Shown: positions 13,315 to 57,274 of the stretch, in pieces
How the letters are laid out: each line of letters starts with the position of its first letter
How positions within the stretch are numbered: the stretch's first letter is position 1
Assembly (NCBI GenBank): GCA_001839685.1
Contig: MLAK01000374.1
Span: 33,037-97,036, forward strand
Reading direction: 5' to 3'
DNA from: Tritrichomonas foetus
Taxonomy: Eukaryota > Parabasalia > Tritrichomonadida > Tritrichomonadidae
DNA length: 64,000 bases
Position numbers and translations under genes: made by a program
The notes under the pieces: model-generated
Databases searched by the model: none
Seen by the model: only the letters and a program-made list of their open reading frames with translations
What the model was told of the DNA's origin: nothing

Positions 13315-15822
13315 ATGTCAACAACAACTTCTGATACCGATACAGATTCACATTCCGATCAGCTGAGCGATTTCGATGACCCAGGTCCGCCTTTTTTTTC
13401 GCCGCTTCGAAAACCCCAATTTGAGGATGTTGATGAATTTTGGAGAAACACTCCTTCAAGACGCTCTTCTTTATCGCCAAATTCGAGAAATTTACACGAT
13501 ACTAAAAAATTAGCCCAATTTTCGCCTGCTCAATCATCGCCATATAAAAATTCAGATACTTCACCAAATTTGCCAGTCAACAGATTTTCACCTATATATG
13601 TTGATTCATCATCCCAAAATACTCCATTTAAACCAGAGCCAAAAAAATCAAATTTCAAAACTATTTCTTTTTCGTCATCATTTTCTTCATCTTCATCTTT
13701 TTTATCTGATTCGTCAGATTATTCTGGAAAAGAAAACAAAGGAAAAATCTCCAAAGTTTCTAAAAATGAAGAAAAGAGGCAACCTTCTCAGTCTTCTTCC
13801 TCTGACGATATTACAGTTGTTTATACGCCAATTGATAAATACAAGTCAAATAAGAAAAAAGAAATTAAGGACTCATCAAAAAATTCAAGTAAAATCGGAA
13901 AAATTGTCTGGAATCGTTCACCCGAAAATTCAATCAAATCTGAAAAGGAAAATATCAATGAAAAGGAAATGAAAGCTGAAAAAGAAAATATCAATGAAAA
14001 GGAAATTATAAATGAAAAGGAAATTATAAAAGAAAAGGAAAACATAAAAGAAAAGGAAAACATAAAAGAAAAGGAAATGACAAATAAAAAGGGAATGAAA
14101 ACTGTATCACTTTTAAGTTCAGATGATGAAGATTTCTTCAGAAAGAAACCACAAAATAAAACTCAAAACGAGAAGAAAATTTCAAAACCTGCTTTTGAGT
14201 CTCCGAAAAGGCAAGCAAGCTGGATTGTAGAAGAAGTGAAAATTACTGAACTATCACCAACCTCTTCATCAAGAAGGAATACAACTAAAAAGTCAATGAA
14301 AACTGACTTTCAACTTGAAATAGAAAACAAAAATGAAAAAGAAAACATTTACATGAACAATGTAGAAAATGATGAAACGATACAAAGGAATTTAGCCATG
14401 AAACAAAATCAAAAATCATCTCTGGCCAAAATGGCCTATGCCGAATTAAATGACAACAAAGAAAAATTACCAAAAAATGAATCACGTATAAAAGAGATTA
14501 TGTCTTGTAAAAATTTTGATTTAAAAATTAAACCTGTCAGTACGAAATCCAAAACAGAAAAGACAAGCACAAATTCAAACTCATTGAAAAATGTTTCAAA
14601 TGACTCTGATGTTAATTCTGATGTCAATGTGATGAATAATTCTCAAAATAACTCGAAACAGAAATCTAGTGTTGATGCAACTGAAAATGAAATTATACAA
14701 AAAACTGAAGTTGTTCAACTTGAGGAAATTCCCCTTCCTGATTTATCCGATTTATCTGATTCATCGTCTCCCAGACGAACCAAAAATCATTTAAGTATTA
14801 ATTATTTAAATAATGTGAACTACAGTCATTCAATTTTAAGTGAACCTGTTCCTTTTTTTGTGACAGACAATGAAACAAAGTATAATTTAAACGAAGAGAT
14901 CGAAAAACTAAAAACAGAAAAAGAAATTCACAAGAAAAATAAGATGAAGATAAATGAAGAACAGAAAAAGAAAAATGAAATTAAGCCAAAAGAAGAAGCA
15001 AAAACTGAAATTGAAAACAATGAAAAAGAATATAAAACTAGGCAGAAAGCTGATGATCAGAAACCAAAAGATAATAAAATCATCAGTAAACACAAAAAAA
15101 GGAAAACCGATGAATCTACACCAACGACTGAAATAAAACCAAAAAAGGAAGAAAAAAAGAAAGAGGTCATTAAAAGAAAAAACACTGAAATCAAGAAAAA
15201 TGCTGAAATCAAGAAAAATTCTGAAACCAAGAAAAATACTGAAACCAAGAAAAATGATGAAACCAAGAAAAAAAAGTCGCCTGTTGCAAAGTCTATTACA
15301 AAAACTTCAAAAAAACCTGCAACTAAAGGTGCAAAAACGGACGAAAAACCAAAATCCAGAAAATATAATTTTTCAATCGATAGTGATGATGAAGATCGAA
15401 CTGTTCGTTCAATTTTCACTTTTCCTGAAGAAAGTCCCAATGAAGTCAATGATGACAACCTTCCAATTGCACTAAGACGCTCAAAAAGACCAAAAATTAA
15501 GGTACTCAAGCATTGGAAGCATGAAAAAATTATGTATCAGCCTGAAGAAGATGGTACTTTCACAATTGTAGGTATCAATACTGAATTTCATCGAAAACTT
15601 GAAAAAGGTGAAATAATGATTAAACCAGATCATATGAAAAAGTTTAATTGTAGCAAAAGTGACCGAAAGATTACTCGAATTGAAGGTGATGGAATGATTG
15701 TATTACAAAAAGATACTATTCAATTCAAAAATAAAAATGAGCATATTCTTAAAAAAGGTGAAAAATGCAATGTTCACTGTGTAGGTGATGAGCCACTTGT
15801 TATAAAAGTTGAGACAATCTAA
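13315..15822 (+). CDS. candidate CENP-C/Mif2 kinetochore protein
   Basis: 835 residues. Most of the chain is disordered: Ser/Asp-rich at the start, then Lys/Glu/Asn repeats (for example KEKENIKEKE near residues 215-260, and five copies of a KKN unit near 620-650). The C-terminus is different. From residue 721 (nucleotide 15475) it reads RRSKRPKIKVLKHWKHEKI, which aligns without gaps to the CENP-C motif (R-R-S-x-R-x-x-x-x-P-x-x-Y/W-W), with Val in place of Pro. It is followed by about 95 residues of beta-rich sequence (RIEGDGMIVLQKDTIQF, HILKKGEKCNVHCV) that fit the cupin dimerisation domain expected next. CENP-C binds CENP-A nucleosomes through this motif and recruits the outer kinetochore. 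The N-terminus (SPLRKPQFEDVDEFW) could hold a Mis12-binding segment. The main alternative is a chance match in a basic region, but the order motif then cupin at the extreme C-terminus argues against that. Confidence 0.7.
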   Translation: MSTTTSDTDTDSHSDQLSDFDDPGPPFFSPLRKPQFEDVDEFWRNTPSRRSSLSPNSRNLHDTKKLAQFSPAQSSPYKNSDTSPNLPVNRFSPIYVDSSSQNTPFKPEPKKSNFKTISFSSSFSSSSSFLSDSSDYSGKENKGKISKVSKNEEKRQPSQSSSSDDITVVYTPIDKYKSNKKKEIKDSSKNSSKIGKIVWNRSPENSIKSEKENINEKEMKAEKENINEKEIINEKEIIKEKENIKEKENIKEKEMTNKKGMKTVSLLSSDDEDFFRKKPQNKTQNEKKISKPAFESPKRQASWIVEEVKITELSPTSSSRRNTTKKSMKTDFQLEIENKNEKENIYMNNVENDETIQRNLAMKQNQKSSLAKMAYAELNDNKEKLPKNESRIKEIMSCKNFDLKIKPVSTKSKTEKTSTNSNSLKNVSNDSDVNSDVNVMNNSQNNSKQKSSVDATENEIIQKTEVVQLEEIPLPDLSDLSDSSSPRRTKNHLSINYLNNVNYSHSILSEPVPFFVTDNETKYNLNEEIEKLKTEKEIHKKNKMKINEEQKKKNEIKPKEEAKTEIENNEKEYKTRQKADDQKPKDNKIISKHKKRKTDESTPTTEIKPKKEEKKKEVIKRKNTEIKKNAEIKKNSETKKNTETKKNDETKKKKSPVAKSITKTSKKPATKGAKTDEKPKSRKYNFSIDSDDEDRTVRSIFTFPEESPNEVNDDNLPIALRRSKRPKIKVLKHWKHEKIMYQPEEDGTFTIVGINTEFHRKLEKGEIMIKPDHMKKFNCSKSDRKITRIEGDGMIVLQKDTIQFKNKNEHILKKGEKCNVHCVGDEPLVIKVETI

Positions 15823-32151: not shown

Positions 32152-33400
32152 TCATGTTGTTGGTACTCGTGCAAAAGAAAATCTATGTCTTGATGAATTC
32201 TTCGGGACCAAAATATTCACTTTCTCTGCAATCTGTTTTGCAAAATGTTCCAATTCCGCTAATTTATTTTTTATTGCCTGCTGCTGCTGTCTTGTTGAAT
32301 TCAAGTTGTTTGCCTGCACGCCAATTTTCTGTTTAAGTTGCTTTATATAGTCTGAATGTTTTTCTTGTCCATTCAGAAGATCTTCTAAAGTTTTATTTAA
32401 CATTCTTTGTTCATGGACAATGTTTTTATCTAATTCGGTTAATCCAACTTTTGCTTTTTTCACATCTTCGCCTTCTTTTTTCTGTAAAAGTTCAACAATT
32501 TCACCATGATCACCTGCTTCTGCAACTTCTTCTGGTGTTTTTCCTAATTGGTTCTTCAATTTTGGATCAGCACCAGCACGAAGTAAATCAGAAACAATTT
32601 CAACATAATTATGTTGACATGCAAAGTGAAGTGGAGTATCTTCGCTTTTATCTTGGATGTTAACAGATGCCTTTTTGGCAATCAGTGCGATTTCACTTTG
32701 GCGATTTCCAAACCAGCAGCAGCAGTGAAGTGGCGTCTTACCTGATGCATCAGCTTGATCAACATTTGCATTATATTGCAAAAGAATTTGAACAATATCA
32801 GTGTGGCCAAACCAGCAAGCAAGGTGAAGTGGTGATCGATTAGAAATAGAAAAAAAAATTCCATCAATTCGAAAAAAAACTGCGTTAAAATAAAAAAATT
32901 AACTGAATCTGTATGTGATAAATCAGCACCTGCTTTAAGAAGTAAGTTAACACATTCTGTTCGACCGTAGCGAGTTGCTAATAAAAGAGGATTGTGATCG
33001 CGTGATACAATTTGTTTCCCTCCGTTGTCTAAAAGAAAGGCGAGAACTTGGTGGTGACCAGCGATTGAAGCCCAATGAATTGCCGTAAAAGGTTAACAAA
33101 TAAAAAAAACTCCATCGTAAATAAATAATATAAATTCCTTCGGACGAATCGATTTTAGCACCGGACTTAAAAAGAAATTTGACAGCTTCGAGTGATCCAT
33201 ACGCAGATGCAATACAGATCAAAGGAACGTTCCTGCGTGTGAGCGAGTTGAGTTTAATTCGGTAAAAAATTGAAAAACGTTGGCACGTAAATAATAAAAA
33301 AAACTTTTTCGTTCGGACTTACTTTGCTTGGAATTAATGATTGTAGAACAGTATCACTATTTCGTTGGATATTTCGAACAACTTGGACTAAAGGATCCAT
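32152..33400 (-). CDS. ankyrin-repeat protein interrupted by three T-rich insertions
   Basis: Read from ATG 33400 downwards, four blocks carry one continuous ankyrin protein in matching frames if three segments are removed: 33304-33400 (SLIPSKVSPNEK), 33136-33233 (NVPLICIASAYGSLEAVKFL and on), 32904-33089 (FTAIHWASIAGHHQVLAFLL and on), and 32152-32844 (SNRSPLHLACWFGH and on). The blocks give about six ankyrin repeats, then a coiled-coil C-terminus (ELDKNIVHEQRMLNKTL onward). The removed pieces are about 70, 46 and 59 nt, each shifts the frame, and none has tidy GT-AG ends. All three fall in the hairpin loop between repeats. Unspliced, the longest frame is only the last block. It is either a spliced gene with unusual introns or a decaying gene; the intact blocks favour the former. 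Confidence 0.6.
32845..32903 (-). other. T-rich insertion 3 in ankyrin gene
   Basis: About 59 nt between HTDS and SNRSPLH. The sense strand starts gttaattttttt and holds TTTTAACGCAG plus GATGGAATTTTTTTTT, both resembling parts of insertion 2. Confidence 0.55.
33090..33135 (-). other. T-rich insertion 2 in ankyrin gene
   Basis: About 46 nt between SSEG and FTAIHW. The sense strand contains TTATTTACGATGGAG followed by eight T and gttaacc. Removing it restores the canonical loop G-F-T-A-I-H. Confidence 0.55.
33234..33303 (-). other. T-rich insertion 1 in ankyrin gene
   Basis: About 70 nt between NEK and NVPLI. On the sense strand it starts with a T run then TTATTTACG and ends ctcacacgca before GG. 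Exact edges are uncertain by a few bases. Confidence 0.5.
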
Positions 33401-37228: not shown

Positions 37229-39712
37229 ATGCAAGATGTCGAAGAGCAATTCATAGACGACAACAACGAAGAACGGCAATCGAGAAGCTTTATCATTAAA
37301 ACTTACAGCGAATCATCATCTTTCCAAAATATCTGCGAATTGACATATCAGAAGATTATTCATATCCGTGGGGTCAAATACACACTCATTATATTTCAGA
37401 ATCCTGTTTGGAGAAGCGAGCTGTCGAAAAAAACTGGAATTCCTACCAGCCATATTAAAATAGTCGACAAAAATGCGACAGATCCACTTCCAAAATTGAC
37501 AGAAACTTTTTATATTTGCGGATTTTACGAAACAGGTTTAACACTTGACGAATGCGATAATATTTTACACCAATTTTCGACAAAAATTTCGATAACCTTC
37601 AATGTAAGTGTAATAAACGTTTCATCATCAAATTGCGAAGAATCTGACCGAACCGCAATCAAATTATTTTTACCGAAATTATATCCATGTTTAGATATAT
37701 CTACATCTATCAACGTTCCTTGCGTCAGATTGTATGTTGATTATTTTCCAGCTTATCAAAACCAGGTAATCACCGAAGACGAAATACACACCATATTTTC
37801 GCAAAATATCAGAAATATAGTCATCAGTGAAGACAATACGATAGTCGATTTAATGCTATACAAAAAAGAGGACATGACGGCTTTAATTGACAGAAGATTC
37901 GTTCGAACAGAAAAATGCGATATTAGTATAACGTCAATATTAACGCTAACCACTTTACAGCGTGTTTCCCGAAATGAGCTAAAAATTGAAAGGCTTCCAT
38001 CAGATTTCGATCTTGAAAAAGCTTATGAGCTTGTCAAAGGCTGTAGCAATATTTATCGAGTAAAGATAGTAAATTTGAACGCAACAATGAAAACAGCCAT
38101 CATTCAATTTACTTCTAATAAAGATGCAGGTAACTTTTTGAATCGACCAAGAAAATATAACAACCAATCATTAAAAGTGTCACGAAATGATACTCGAAAC
38201 CAATTTCCAAATATTTCAACTCCAGCCCGACCGCTCGCTGATAAGCCGTTTGTTCAAAAACCAAATCAAACAGCCCCATTTTCTACTATTGTTTCAAATC
38301 CAGTTCCAAGACCACCATTTATTACCTCACAAAGTGCAGACGAAAATATAAAACCAAGAGCTACTGATGAATCTGGTGACGAACCAGTTAAAATACCAAA
38401 GAATTCATTAATAGTTTCAATTACTACAGAAAAAACGTCGAAAATTGACTATACTCCTCCTCCTATCTTTTTTGCTTTATCCGACAATAAAAATGAAGCA
38501 CAACAACAAAATAGTCAACAACAAACATCTCAACCAAAACAACAAAAAACAGTTTTTGATTTCCAATCACCACTTGGGTTCACCCCACCAAAAACATTAA
38601 ACATCAGCAAAGACAAAAATAATTCACCAGAATATGGAAATGCAAAATACGAAGGTATAATGAAATGCACCACTGAAACAAAAACTGAAAATAAGACAGA
38701 GATAAAAATTGAAAACAAGACAGAAACCACACTCAAAACTCACAATGAAGGTGTTACAAATGAAGAGGGACAAAATGAAAGCGAAAATTTTTTTAAAAAA
38801 GAGCCAATCGAAGTTAAAGTAATGAATAAAGAGGAAAATATCAATAGTGATAAAATGAATAATGAAGAAGACCAGGAATCAAATAAAGGAATTCCTGATA
38901 AAAGCATGGAAAAAGAAGATGAAGAGAGATTTTTTTTGAATGAAAAGCCTGTAGAGCACAATGTTGATGATGGCAAAAAACCAAAAAAAGAATCAAATGA
39001 AGTGCAGCCACCAAAAACACAAAAAGTAGAAATTTCAAGCGATAATTTAAAAATACAAGCCAATTTTATAAATAAAGAGATTGAAAATGATAAAAAAGTA
39101 AAGAGATTAGAAAATATAATTCCAGAAATAGTTTTTACTGAAAAAGTGAAAAAGAATAACATTCTCAAAAATGATTTGGAGAATAAAGGAAGGATAGAAA
39201 ATGAAGAAAAAAATGATATATATCAAATCGAAGATCATGAATCTGTTGGAGAAAGAAGGAATAATGTTAACAATACAGATATAATTTATATCAATCCGCC
39301 TAATCATACCAATACTCCAAAAGCAGAGAGAATATCGCAGATACATAAAAAAGTAGACAAGAAAAAAGATAAAACAGAGAAAAAACTATTAGAGGAGAGA
39401 GAGATAATAGTAAAGAAAGATCTAACAGAAAAGAAAGATCCAATAATAAAGAAAGATCCAATCGAAAATAAAGATCCAATATTAAAGAAAGATTCAATCG
39501 AAAATAAAGATCCAACAGAAAAGAGAGAGAAAGAAGTTCCTAAAAAAGACAAAGTTAAAGAGAATCAATATCCTAAACGAATGACGCCAGTAAAAACTAG
39601 TGTTATTGTTAACACTGTAATATATAGTAATGATCTTTTAGAGAAAAGGAACCGTCAGAAAAAACCTGTATTTATTACTGTTTTTGATAATCCCATATAT
39701 AAATTTGATTAA
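37229..39712 (+). CDS. RRM-like protein with long Lys/Glu/Asn low-complexity tail
   Basis: 827 residues. A TCATT initiator-like motif is at 37222-37226. The first 320 residues have alternating strands and helices in three or four units resembling degenerate RRMs; the best is residues about 250-320 (LKIERLPSDFDLEKAYELVK, then VKIVNLNATMKTAIIQFTSN). After residue 330 the chain is disordered: Pro/Gln stretches, then Lys/Glu/Asn repeats, including six or seven copies of a K-D-P/S-I-x-x-K unit near residues 730-770. An RNA-related role is plausible but not certain. Confidence 0.55.
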   Translation: MQDVEEQFIDDNNEERQSRSFIIKTYSESSSFQNICELTYQKIIHIRGVKYTLIIFQNPVWRSELSKKTGIPTSHIKIVDKNATDPLPKLTETFYICGFYETGLTLDECDNILHQFSTKISITFNVSVINVSSSNCEESDRTAIKLFLPKLYPCLDISTSINVPCVRLYVDYFPAYQNQVITEDEIHTIFSQNIRNIVISEDNTIVDLMLYKKEDMTALIDRRFVRTEKCDISITSILTLTTLQRVSRNELKIERLPSDFDLEKAYELVKGCSNIYRVKIVNLNATMKTAIIQFTSNKDAGNFLNRPRKYNNQSLKVSRNDTRNQFPNISTPARPLADKPFVQKPNQTAPFSTIVSNPVPRPPFITSQSADENIKPRATDESGDEPVKIPKNSLIVSITTEKTSKIDYTPPPIFFALSDNKNEAQQQNSQQQTSQPKQQKTVFDFQSPLGFTPPKTLNISKDKNNSPEYGNAKYEGIMKCTTETKTENKTEIKIENKTETTLKTHNEGVTNEEGQNESENFFKKEPIEVKVMNKEENINSDKMNNEEDQESNKGIPDKSMEKEDEERFFLNEKPVEHNVDDGKKPKKESNEVQPPKTQKVEISSDNLKIQANFINKEIENDKKVKRLENIIPEIVFTEKVKKNNILKNDLENKGRIENEEKNDIYQIEDHESVGERRNNVNNTDIIYINPPNHTNTPKAERISQIHKKVDKKKDKTEKKLLEEREIIVKKDLTEKKDPIIKKDPIENKDPILKKDSIENKDPTEKREKEVPKKDKVKENQYPKRMTPVKTSVIVNTVIYSNDLLEKRNRQKKPVFITVFDNPIYKFD

Positions 39713-45304: not shown

Positions 45305-46256
45305 TAAATATTTGTTAAAGAATATATATATTTCGAACATATCTATTTTTAAGAAATATTTTTATAATTAATTATATAATATGTAGCAACGAAAAAACTT
45401 AAGAGAGTAGCACTATATTGTAGGATTTTCACCTAAAATTTTAACTTTGGAATTATTGAGCAACTTATTAAAACATGCTAATTCTTTGCAGGTTTGACTC
45501 TACTGTTGTTGATTTGAGAAGTTTTACAGACTTAAAACTTTAATAATATTTGTTTTAAGGTTTTTCATTTGGTTTTTGACTCTTTGAAGATTAGTTATTA
45601 TTTCTTCAGATAATTATCTGAATCCTTCACGTTGGGGAATTATATCTCCAATAATCATAATAGATAATCCGGCTTCATTTGTTAGTTTGATGATTGGAAT
45701 CGTTTGATTTCAGAAAAATAGAAATGTTTGAACATTGACAATCACCGTGGGCAACAGAAATCATGGATGTTGAAATCCGTAAGAGGATTTGAAACTTCTT
45801 TTCATATTAGCAGAATTTTCCCAATCATCATCAAAGCCTTTGAATTAAATAATAAGTATTTCAGATTCATAATAAAATATCCTTTTAATATCTTTTATAA
45901 AAGGGACTGATAATGTGTTCATATTAAAGAACCCTTTTGTTGATATAATATATTGTGTAATTAATATATTGAGTGTGTTAACTTTCCGTTTGTTGTTTTC
46001 TTAAATGATGTGAAATTCCAAATATTTAAAAAAATATTAATTGAATATCAAATGGCATTTTAATAATGCATTAATTCATGATATTAAATTGATGAACCCA
46101 AATTGGATTATGTGAACAAAAAAATTGAAATATTTGAGCAGAATGAGTTTTAAAAAGTAAATTCTTGAAGATTGGAAAAAAAACTTGATAACAAAAATTT
46201 CAATGAAAATATCATCATTATTTTTAAATATAGGTAATGAACGAATCTTTCAGCTT
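45305..46256. other. intergenic, no gene seen
   Basis: About 950 bp of AT-rich sequence upstream of the tRNA gene. Short frames such as 45728-45910 have no support. Confidence 0.5.
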
Positions 46257-46328
46257 GGGTGGTTAGCTCAGTGGTAGAGCGCTACATTTGCATTGTAGAG
46301 GCCAGGGGTCCGACTCCCCTACTATCCA
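46257..46328 (+). tRNA. tRNA-Ala (anticodon UGC)
   Basis: A 72-nt cloverleaf without the encoded CCA. The acceptor arm GGGTGGT pairs with ACTATCC, including the G3:U70 wobble pair that identifies alanine tRNAs. The D arm holds the A box (TTAGCTCAGTGGTAGAGC). The anticodon stem CTACA/TGTAG encloses the loop TTTGCAT with anticodon TGC. The T arm holds the B box (GGGGTCCGACTCCCC). A run of T follows 3 nt after the discriminator A (46330 onward), suitable as an RNA polymerase III terminator. No intron. Confidence 0.97.
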
Positions 46329-46329
46329 T

Positions 46330-46347
46330 CTTTTTTTTCTTTTTTAC
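46330..46347 (+). terminator. RNA polymerase III terminator of tRNA-Ala
   Basis: Two T runs (eight T, then six T after a C) start directly after the tRNA 3' end. Confidence 0.8.
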
Positions 46348-54712: not shown

Positions 54713-57274
54713 ATGCACAACACCAAGAAACAGAGTTCTAACTCCCATGACCCGGTGCAGAAACACAAAACTGAAATGAAAAAGATTTTAGGTGTCGCCA
54801 ACAAAGCTATTGTTTCAACATCGCTCAAAGAAAAAAATGATTTATTATTAGATCTTCAAGAGCTCTTCACGCCTTTCATAGAAAACTTCGACAAGCATCA
54901 AACAATCCTCCGAATCAAGAACGACGAATTAAACGGCCTCAAAAAAAAATTAAACGAAGCGACAAATTTGAAAGATACTCTTCAAAGAAATACAGCTTTT
55001 TATTTAAACGCCAATCAAGCACGAATTCGACCGACCGAAGACAAATTAATCGAATCTATTCAAAATCTCGAAGATGAAATTTCGTCTCACCACCCGCTCG
55101 ATTTTCCAGAACGACTTGAGAAAGCTCTCAAATTGCCGGAGAAAAGCTATCAAAAGCTATTTTCAATAATCGATATAAATCTCAGGCGAATTGAGGAGCT
55201 CGCATATGCTTATAAAAAGAGACTGATCGTCGTTGAAGAGTCGCAGGAATCAACAGAAGTAGTAGCTCGTGATTATGGCAGCATCAATAATTTAATTGAA
55301 AAAGTGAATTCCTTAGAAAAAGAGAATGAAAAATTGAAAGCCGATGAAAAAGTTTTCATTCATGATGCGATTACTCGTAGAAGAAAATTCGCACAAATGA
55401 CCCCTGGAAGTGCGAGATGTTTTATTAAAACTTTTAAAGATATGATTCAAGCAGATAATTTTATAATCAAATCTTTTCGAGAAGAAGGTTTCGAAGCTGA
55501 TTTTGAAAACGCTGATCTTGATTTTGATGCAGTTTCTCCTGACACTGGATTTAAAACTGAACCAACTCATTTTGATGCGTCTGACTTCGGGAATACAACA
55601 GAACCTGATATAATCGCACCGATTCTAGGAAATAAATCACTGGAGGAAATGGTGTCGGCGTTTCAAAAAGTCAATCACAACATTGAAGCTACTAATTCAA
55701 AATTACTTGGTGAAATTACTGCAATACCTTTCAGGTACTACAAGCAAAAAGAATCTATTCTTTCCAGAATTGACAAAATAGGAGAAGCAAACGAGAGACT
55801 GTTAATGAAAGTTCATTCATTGAATCACGACTTAGATTTCAAAAATCAGGAAGTTTTGAATATGGCAAATATGCTACAACGAACAAACAAAGAAAAATTG
55901 AACTACAACGCTTTTTACGTTTACAGCCTAGGAAAAATTAAAAGATTGACAGAGTCTCATGTGAAATTAATTCATAGACAGACTACAAACAAAAGAATAT
56001 TACAACTATTGTATCAAACTGTATCTTCATGGGGACTTTCAATGTTTTATTCAAACCAACCAAAGCCAACGCTTCAAAACAATACAAAAAATAGTTCTAA
56101 CGACATCAACAAGCCAGCACCAAAACCCAAACCAAAATCAAGAGCAGCTTCAGCAACAGTATCTAGAGTCAAATTTATCCTACCCAATGATCCTCCAATT
56201 CAGAATTCTCAAAATGATAAAAACAAAAGAAATAATTATGAACACGAAGAGTCAGAAAATGATTACAATGATACAGAAAACGATGATGATATAAATAATG
56301 AAAATGAAAACGAAGGTCTTCTTGAAGAGATTGCTGAAGCAGGAAATGAAGCTGAAAATGTTGAAAGTGAAAAAAGTTTCAATGATGAAAATTATAACCA
56401 TAATATTTCTAATTCTAACACTAATTTCAACATTAATAGTGATCATGATAAAAGTGATAAAAATAGTGAATCTATTAGTGAAAGTATTGTTGAATTTGTG
56501 AGTGAAGAAGATGGAGAACAAGGTTGTGCTACTTTGTGTCAGTTTGAGAATCTTTATCTGAAGAAAATGGCTGAAGAAATGATTCAACAAATAAAAGCTG
56601 AAAATGATGCAAGACTAGATCGAAGTCCAAGAAAATCCAATGATGAAGATGGATCGCATCCTTCGAAAGATCCACAACATGAGCCAGTCACGGCTGCTGC
56701 CTTTCATGAAAGATTGATGGCCTTGAAAAAAACTAAGAAACCTCGACATGGATCTTCAGATTCTAATAATTTGAATGCACATAATAGTGTTCTTTCCAAT
56801 ATACCAAGTAGTAACAATAATAATTTGGTTTCAAGTAACAGTGAAACAAGTACCAATGACTTGAATGTCTCTAAAAATTCTTCTCAATGTCAATCAACAA
56901 ATCATCTTCCAAGTAGATCTTCAACAACCATTTTCTTTCATAATCGGCCGAGATATGAAATTATTCATGGCCTTTCAGTTGCATCTGAATTTGCTGGATT
57001 TGCTTTTGGTGTCGATAAAAAATTCCGTGCGGCAATTTCCAATTCTGTGAAAGAATCACTCTTACAAATCAAGAAAGAGATCCAGCAACAATTGAATGGA
57101 TTTGGAATTCCGTTTTCTGAACATATTTCAGAAATTAACATGTGCTCAAATCGAATCCTAGTGAAACACAAACAAGCAATTTCGATACAAACAGATGTAC
57201 AACCACGATTCGACGAAGAAACGCAAACATCGCAGACAGGCATGGTTAAACCAGCTCAAAAAAAACATAAGTAA
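54713..57274 (+). CDS. coiled-coil protein with acidic disordered centre
   Basis: 853 residues. Residues about 40-230 and 310-430 are coiled coil (LRIKNDELNGLKKKLNEATN; NERLLMKVHSLNHDLDFKNQ). Residues about 480-620 are acidic and Asn/Glu-rich. The region 700-760 is Ser/Asn-rich. The last 60 residues are helical and basic. AAAAAAGT lies about 10 nt before the ATG. Probably a cytoskeletal or scaffold protein; no family recognised. Confidence 0.55.
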   Translation: MHNTKKQSSNSHDPVQKHKTEMKKILGVANKAIVSTSLKEKNDLLLDLQELFTPFIENFDKHQTILRIKNDELNGLKKKLNEATNLKDTLQRNTAFYLNANQARIRPTEDKLIESIQNLEDEISSHHPLDFPERLEKALKLPEKSYQKLFSIIDINLRRIEELAYAYKKRLIVVEESQESTEVVARDYGSINNLIEKVNSLEKENEKLKADEKVFIHDAITRRRKFAQMTPGSARCFIKTFKDMIQADNFIIKSFREEGFEADFENADLDFDAVSPDTGFKTEPTHFDASDFGNTTEPDIIAPILGNKSLEEMVSAFQKVNHNIEATNSKLLGEITAIPFRYYKQKESILSRIDKIGEANERLLMKVHSLNHDLDFKNQEVLNMANMLQRTNKEKLNYNAFYVYSLGKIKRLTESHVKLIHRQTTNKRILQLLYQTVSSWGLSMFYSNQPKPTLQNNTKNSSNDINKPAPKPKPKSRAASATVSRVKFILPNDPPIQNSQNDKNKRNNYEHEESENDYNDTENDDDINNENENEGLLEEIAEAGNEAENVESEKSFNDENYNHNISNSNTNFNINSDHDKSDKNSESISESIVEFVSEEDGEQGCATLCQFENLYLKKMAEEMIQQIKAENDARLDRSPRKSNDEDGSHPSKDPQHEPVTAAAFHERLMALKKTKKPRHGSSDSNNLNAHNSVLSNIPSSNNNNLVSSNSETSTNDLNVSKNSSQCQSTNHLPSRSSTTIFFHNRPRYEIIHGLSVASEFAGFAFGVDKKFRAAISNSVKESLLQIKKEIQQQLNGFGIPFSEHISEINMCSNRILVKHKQAISIQTDVQPRFDEETQTSQTGMVKPAQKKHK

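Follow-up and report, generated by a model that had tools for sequence, protein, structure and literature searches.

A probably working ankyrin-repeat gene of Tritrichomonas foetus has its loops interrupted by ultra-short, U-rich, intron-like segments that are most likely cut from the transcript. Judged from the sequence, these segments are best read as falling outside both trichomonad intron types, A and B.

Three T-rich breaks in an ankyrin-repeat gene

T. foetus is a parasite of cattle. The sequence examined, referred to here as the window, is the 64-kb stretch at positions 33037-97036 of one contig in the 63.7 Mb assembly. Three-frame translation revealed an ankyrin frame on the minus strand, running from an ATG at 33400 to a stop at 32152 and interrupted thrice by T-rich DNA, with straight read-through from the ATG ending after 48 codons. 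Pfam Ank matches were found in the C-terminal piece of the gene. Break 1 lies ahead of the first full ankyrin repeat, while breaks 2 and 3 lie between repeats; the placement of all insertions in turns between repeats, as proposed in the initial annotation, is thus correct for the latter two but not for break 1. The blocks said there to be shared by the insertions are indeed present in the minus-strand sequence of the breaks, namely TTATTTACG, TTATTTACG and TTATTTTAACG, each followed by a T run, as well as GATGGAG plus 8 T or GATGGAA plus 9 T in two of the three breaks.

Although the existence of three T-rich frame breaks splitting the gene was confirmed, each is best read, on present sequence evidence, not as a simple insertion but as a group of two or three elements, 18-21 nt in length, arranged around micro-exons, giving seven probable elements in all. 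Under this tandem-element reading, the shared "TTATTTACG..GTTTTT" block corresponds to the tail of one element and the head of the next. The seven elements measure 18, 19, 19, 21, 20, 18 and 21 nt and, with the exception of 1b, are codon-aligned. While the earlier description of GT-AG ends as absent holds in that none of the seven ends in AG, five of them do start with GT. Because the 3' ends read, in order, AC, ACCG, AC, ACCT, AC, AT and AT, the 3' rule is a loose one. The parts of the gene are listed below, together with the evidence for each, P0010 being an unbroken homolog of 368 aa; the summed coding length of the window gene is some 370 codons, as compared to those 368 residues.

32152..33400, minus strand: whole ankyrin-repeat gene, ATG at 33400, TGA ending at 32152 (frame reading, Pfam Ank)
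33305..33400, minus strand: exon piece 1, 32 codons (16/29 identical to P0010, ungapped)
33287..33304, minus strand: element 1a, 18 nt, GT...AC (T-rich; removal together with 1b, with the micro-exon kept, gives the homolog length)
33279..33286, minus strand: probable micro-exon, 8 nt, V-P-T with the first base after 1b (homolog residues)
33260..33278, minus strand: element 1b, 19 nt, GT...ACCG (not codon-aligned; ends uncertain)
33136..33259, minus strand: exon piece 2 (22/40 identical to P0010, ungapped)
33117..33135, minus strand: probable element 2a, 19 nt, AT...AC (piece alignment)
33111..33116, minus strand: probable micro-exon GATGGA, Asp-Gly (Gly in P0010 and P0223, absent in P0014)
33090..33110, minus strand: probable element 2b, 21 nt, GT...ACCT (boundary common to the last elements of L002 and L003, by eye, and to the deduced P0006 insert)
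32904..33089, minus strand: exon piece 3, 62 codons (35/62 identical to P0010, ungapped)
32884..32903, minus strand: probable element 3a, 20 nt, GT...AC (sole parse under the relaxed rule)
32881..32883, minus strand: probable one-codon micro-exon GCA, Ala (Ala in 8/10 homologs)
32863..32880, minus strand: probable element 3b, 18 nt, GT...AT (relaxed-rule parse)
32860..32862, minus strand: probable one-codon micro-exon GGA, Gly (Gly in 9/10 homologs)
32839..32859, minus strand: probable element 3c, 21 nt, AT...AT (relaxed-rule parse)
32152..32838, minus strand: exon piece 4 (first 121 residues: 76/121 identical to P0010, ungapped)

Elsewhere in the window, long open frames of 827-853 aa with no Pfam match at E 0.001 were seen at 13315-15822, 37229-39712 and 54713-57274, the first two lying in stretches of strong A-over-T skew. 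The only tRNA found in the window was tRNA-Ala (TGC) at 46256-46330 on the plus strand.

Comparison with homologs

Homologs P0010 and P0014 were obtained by protein search, and P0223 was added by a search with P0010. No longer T. foetus product of the window gene appeared among the matches listed in the protein searches (in one, the best 120 of 1203). The four translated pieces were aligned singly, with piece ends being set by the analyst from the reading frames and the alignments extended to these ends. Pieces 1-4 aligned with P0010 without gaps at 55%, 55%, 56% and 63% identity, respectively; P0223 required one gap in piece 1 and P0014 one each in pieces 3 and 4. With the piece ends so chosen, P0010, P0223 and P0014 hold three, two and two extra residues at breaks 1, 2 and 3, and P0006 likewise holds two at break 3, its out-of-frame N-terminal part having been left out of the count. 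As the homologs hold three, two and two more residues, 37, 40 and 59 nt would be removed. Of the sizes of about 70, 46 and 59 nt proposed earlier, only the third therefore agrees with homolog lengths; the first had included exon sequence, since KLNSLTRRNVPL matches RLRSLTRRNVPL of P0223.

Putative micro-exons of 8, 6, 3 and 3 nt within the T-rich stretches would supply exactly the number of residues missing. At break 1, GTGCCAAC together with the next A encodes V-P-T, found as M-P-T in P0223, I-P-F in P0014 and V-T-S in P0010. At break 2, GATGGA encodes D-G, the corresponding residues being C-G in P0010, S-G in P0223 and M-T in P0014. At break 3, GCA and GGA encode A-G, the pair present in seven of the ten homologs read at this position (P0006, P0008, P0010, P0011, P0013, P0223 and P0232), with A-M appearing in P0009, S-G in P0014 and T-G in P0018. 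When break 3 was cut into three elements and two codons with no rule imposed on the ends, A-G was obtained in 2 of 216 parses.

The same lengths could be explained were each break a single, longer non-canonical insertion of 37-59 nt containing no micro-exons, with the missing residues coming from the insert edges. Such an arrangement, considered unlikely, is compatible with both frame and length, and at break 1 the codons just ahead of piece 2 encode F-Y-R, resembling P0014, L002 and L003, such that a single 37-nt insert is possible there. Break 1 is accordingly ambiguous, being either one 37-nt insert or two elements around a micro-exon. At breaks 2 and 3, however, the edge codons supply neither the Gly nor the Ala-Gly, respectively, while the interior codons supply both.

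Recurrence across ankyrin loci

The two nearest paralogs, L002 and L003, share 37% and 33% identity with the window gene and carry T-rich inserts ahead of the same xIHWA repeat, that is, in the loop holding break 2; as the pattern also recurs in other ankyrin loci, it reflects more than chance. When examined by eye, the last element of L002, that of L003 and element 2b were all seen to end two codons before P/A-I-H. At this boundary, the position tested among them, P0010, P0223 and P0014 are unbroken. P0006, from a Logan contig of what is apparently another species, has an apparent 19-nt insert at the 2b boundary, deduced by hand from the protein frame rather than from DNA. Conservation of intron position and phase among homologs was thus found at the one position tested, the end of 2b (L002 and L003, with P0006 being deduced).

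These comparisons bear on the possibility, raised in the initial annotation, that the gene has decayed, namely that pseudogenes have gathered T-rich DNA in their loops. Ankyrin genes are numerous in T. foetus, with at least 155 matches to one query, and such abundance, the simple composition of the inserts and the early end of read-through would all suit decay. Loss of constraint on the pieces, the mark of a pseudogene, was nonetheless not found. Indeed, the pieces bounded by breaks, and hence both sides of each break, are conserved in homologs at levels (55-56% identity to P0010) near that of the uninterrupted C-terminal part (63%). The breaks, moreover, fall in loops and are regular in size, phase and ends, and paralogs at only 33-37% identity use the same boundary. 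Decay is, as such, unlikely. Among the origins considered in the initial annotation, a non-canonical short intron class is best supported, given the conserved flanks, the boundary common to two paralogs and the presence of the same elements elsewhere.

An ankyrin-core profile was built from the collected loci and run on all six frames, with a core score of at least 6 being required; nine overlapping loci were left out of the junction survey and identical gap sequences were counted once. The 51 ankyrin-matching loci yielded 173 contiguous repeat junctions versus 55 interrupted ones, the interrupted share being biased upward because 12 further regions had been picked for their short open frames. 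Noise probably accounts for a few of these 55, the 22- and 39-nt gaps for instance, and a weak repeat may lie within some of the longest. Of the contiguous junctions, 143 measured 24-36 nt and 30 were longer. Mean T content was 0.27 in contiguous and 0.45 in interrupted junctions, and interrupted T-rich loops were found in 23 of the 51 loci. Across 46 interrupted loops (44-135 nt, T at least 0.35), gap length showed a period of about 19-20 nt (R 0.58), with none of 1000 random sets being as strong. Such steps of some 19-20 nt, together with the many loops carrying just one element of about this size, argue against single long insertions.

Searches with simple patterns were also performed. GAYGGNGTTTTTTT gave 10 matches genome-wide versus 10 in the control, and TTNATGGNGTTTTTT gave 27 versus 25. 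As neither was enriched, simple patterns cannot serve to count the class. Four of the 10 GAYGGNGTTTTTTT matches fall in interrupted ankyrin loops (those of the window gene, L003, L050 and L053). When the window and loci were scanned by reading frame for GT...XX elements, ankyrin loops made up 13 of the 17 rows printed, and none came from the window, the scan having missed the window gene's own elements; TT ends were commoner here than AT ends. Because the scanned loci had mostly been fetched for their ankyrin matches, the scan says little on other gene families. A search for close paralogs of L063 and L073, two loci with repeatedly interrupted loops, returned, besides the loci themselves, only short matches of up to about 115 nt at 70-82% identity. 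In L016 and L063, 51-nt loops hold what appear to be mini-elements, 18 and 21 nt long, that contain no stop and preserve the frame. An open frame would thus conceal them, and annotation could take them for protein.

Least likely of the explanations considered is that the segments are eliminated at the DNA level or stem from faulty assembly. A single assembly was examined, which leaves room for either event, but size, phase and ends are common to many separate loci, a homolog protein taken from a different data source breaks frame at the corresponding position, and inserts of 20 nt are not produced by simple read errors.

Ends of the elements

The ends of the elements were addressed in loops with a gap of 44-60 nt, which were taken to hold a single insert. 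In 16 of 18 such loops, a codon-aligned, frame-restoring GT...AT segment of 19-22 nt was found (two of the 16 also permit a segment of 22 or 23 nt), and an AT start makes the remaining two readable as well. Over 2000 rounds of shuffling, 2.6 loops qualified on average and never more than 8, although shuffling, here and below, does not keep T-run structure. When 50% T was required, GT...AT was the commonest pair of ends (14/18), with the next pair being found in 10. T content by itself is not enough to place the ends, as the best windows by this measure mostly begin one base further on.

Longer loops were more resistant. Under a strict GT...AT rule, 5 of 35 were fully parsed (shuffle mean 0.27, maximum 2 of 300), rising to 14 of 35 under a relaxed rule that also accepted AT as a start and AC as an end (3.1 on average in 300 shuffles, 8 at most). 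GT...TT parsed 5 of the 35, the same number as GT...AT, in a count made without shuffle control, while GT...AG parsed none of the 35. Neither the strict nor the relaxed rule fits 21 of the 35 longer loops, including window break 2 (break 1 lies outside this set), and such resistance to tandem parsing favors single long insertions.

In total, 54 elements of 18-23 nt were parsed from 31 of the 53 loops with a gap of at least 44 nt. Parsing considered the first two and last two bases, a T content of at least 40% and a length of 17-23 nt, with the most T-rich parse being taken when there were several. Of the starts, for which GT or AT was a criterion, 42 were GT and 12 AT. All 54 elements present T at position -4, a position not considered in parsing, and 48 of the 54 end in YTNAY. 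YTNAY is the usual branch-site consensus. Given the T at -4 in every element, the ends are branch-site-like, albeit without AG.

These same ends speak against translational bypassing, in which the segments would be kept in the mRNA and skipped by the ribosome. The mostly codon-aligned boundaries would suit a codon-based process. In known bypassing, however, take-off and landing codons match, which is not so here, element 3c being preceded by GGA and ending in AAT, for example; segment sequences moreover vary, up to four occur in a row, and the GT start and T at -4 resemble splice signals. Bypassing is thus deemed very unlikely.

A proposed route to an uninterrupted protein

Removal from the transcript as intron-like segments, the preferred explanation, would proceed as follows. 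Segments of 18-23 nt are predicted to lie in the loops joining repeats, mostly between codons, with a typical segment starting with GU (sometimes AU) and finishing in a branch-site-like YUNAY end without the usual AG. A loop would contain one to four such segments, with micro-exons of as little as one codon between them. The transcript would then lose the segments, probably one by one and via the spliceosome of the parasite, to yield an ordinary ankyrin protein. Since each removal brings the next GT to the joined exon, sequential splicing could work. As for the machinery, Prp8 is present in the genome, a U6-like match fell just below the cut-off and canonical-looking introns are present. The layout of the breaks, its recurrence, the conservation of the pieces and the agreement of residues with homologs are shown by the sequence; we infer that the gene is expressed, that removal occurs at the RNA level and that the spliceosome is responsible. 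Still, it would be unusual for a spliceosome to place the 3' end a single base beyond the branch A, and other machinery may be involved.

A more specific proposal can be put forward tentatively, although it is possible rather than probable, namely that the segments are introns of some 20 nt that lack AG and whose 3' end is the branch-site motif itself. They would lie mostly in phase 0 within exposed ankyrin loops, with as many as four following one another and a single codon sufficing as an exon between them, and splicing could there vary loop residues of a binding surface. Since the majority of micro-exons consist of whole codons, the frame would survive the skipping of any one of these, and it is in this manner that splicing could vary the residues of a loop.

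If the segments are spliced, annotation would have missed or shortened a good share of T. foetus ankyrin genes, the minimum sizes of introns and exons in this lineage would shift and splicing without a 3' AG would need explaining. According to the respective reports, gene prediction in T. foetus KV-1 gave at most two exons per gene (PMC11415386), T. foetus has been called intron-poor (PMC12428144), T. musculus holds 2,500 intron-bearing genes (PMC11978803) and no Histomonas gene has more than one intron (PMC8529796). PMC6679479 mentions neither foetus nor Tritrichomonas. The listed titles and opening lines of abstracts, in a literature from which most subscription papers and all preprints fell outside the scope, describe no such elements. 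Going by their sequence, the elements seem to be very small introns of a kind not described before.

Relation to known introns

In PMC12316389 and PMC6260720, type A trichomonad introns are given as 56-196 nt long with GYAYGT and ACTAACACACAG, and type B introns as 23-28 nt long with TCTAAC and an AACAG end. Type A introns also exist in T. foetus. Indeed, exact ACTAACACACAG was found 17 times genome-wide versus 11 in the control, with 10 of the 17 showing a GYAYGY start 95-188 nt upstream. They are not, however, what breaks the window gene, the elements of which contain neither GYAYGT nor ACTAACACACAG; a pattern scan of the window and loci for the two motifs at more than 50 nt returned no type A row in the window, bearing out the earlier remark that the long 3' trichomonad consensus is absent. 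By eye, an ankyrin loop of L014 contains a GTATGT...CTAACATGCAG intron, GAT and then a 19-nt element ending in CTAAT; omitting both segments leaves a ten-residue loop. Separately, the type A introns of L032, L033, L039, L043, L046 and L047 appear by eye to contain a C/D-box-like core (TGATGA ... CTGA); such a core in at least six of ten type A introns suggests the presence of snoRNAs inside T. foetus introns.

Type B introns, described in Trichomonas, offer a closer likeness, in that they too are very short and T-rich and start with GT, and many elements here also fit GTWYWD, a loose consensus for the 5' end. A GT start was seen in five of the seven window elements and in 42 of the 54 parsed elements, and T content over the 54 was 66%, above the preset 40%. 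By contrast, window elements, at 18-21 nt, are shorter than type B introns (only 3 of the 54 parsed elements reach 23 nt), and they show no CTAAC branch with AACAG, none of them ending in AG. Rather than TCTAAC/AACAG, as reported for type B, the elements, 18-23 nt in length, present an AG-less YTNAY end and follow one another with micro-exons in between. Being shorter and without the 3' motif, the window elements were not assigned to type B. The short-intron pattern GT...CTAAC...AG gave 65 matches versus 527 in the control, such that most are due to chance; of four inspected, those of L080 and L085 look like true type B introns. The 25-nt candidates concerned are GTTTGT-T9-CTAACATCAG in a Rab-like GTPase gene (L085) and GTATGT-T9-CTAACAACAG in a PH-like gene (L080), both genes being named by eye.

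Beyond trichomonads, the nonconventional introns of euglenids, as described in PMC4770533, are similar in having variable borders and an unknown mode of removal. Those introns need RNA structure that joins their ends, which the present elements, being short and U-rich, are unlikely to form. The tiny introns of Stentor and Bigelowiella are GT-AG introns. At 15 nt in Stentor and 18 nt in Bigelowiella (lengths as given in PMC12316389), they are in a similar size range to the elements described here, which differ in having no AG and in clustering in ankyrin loops.
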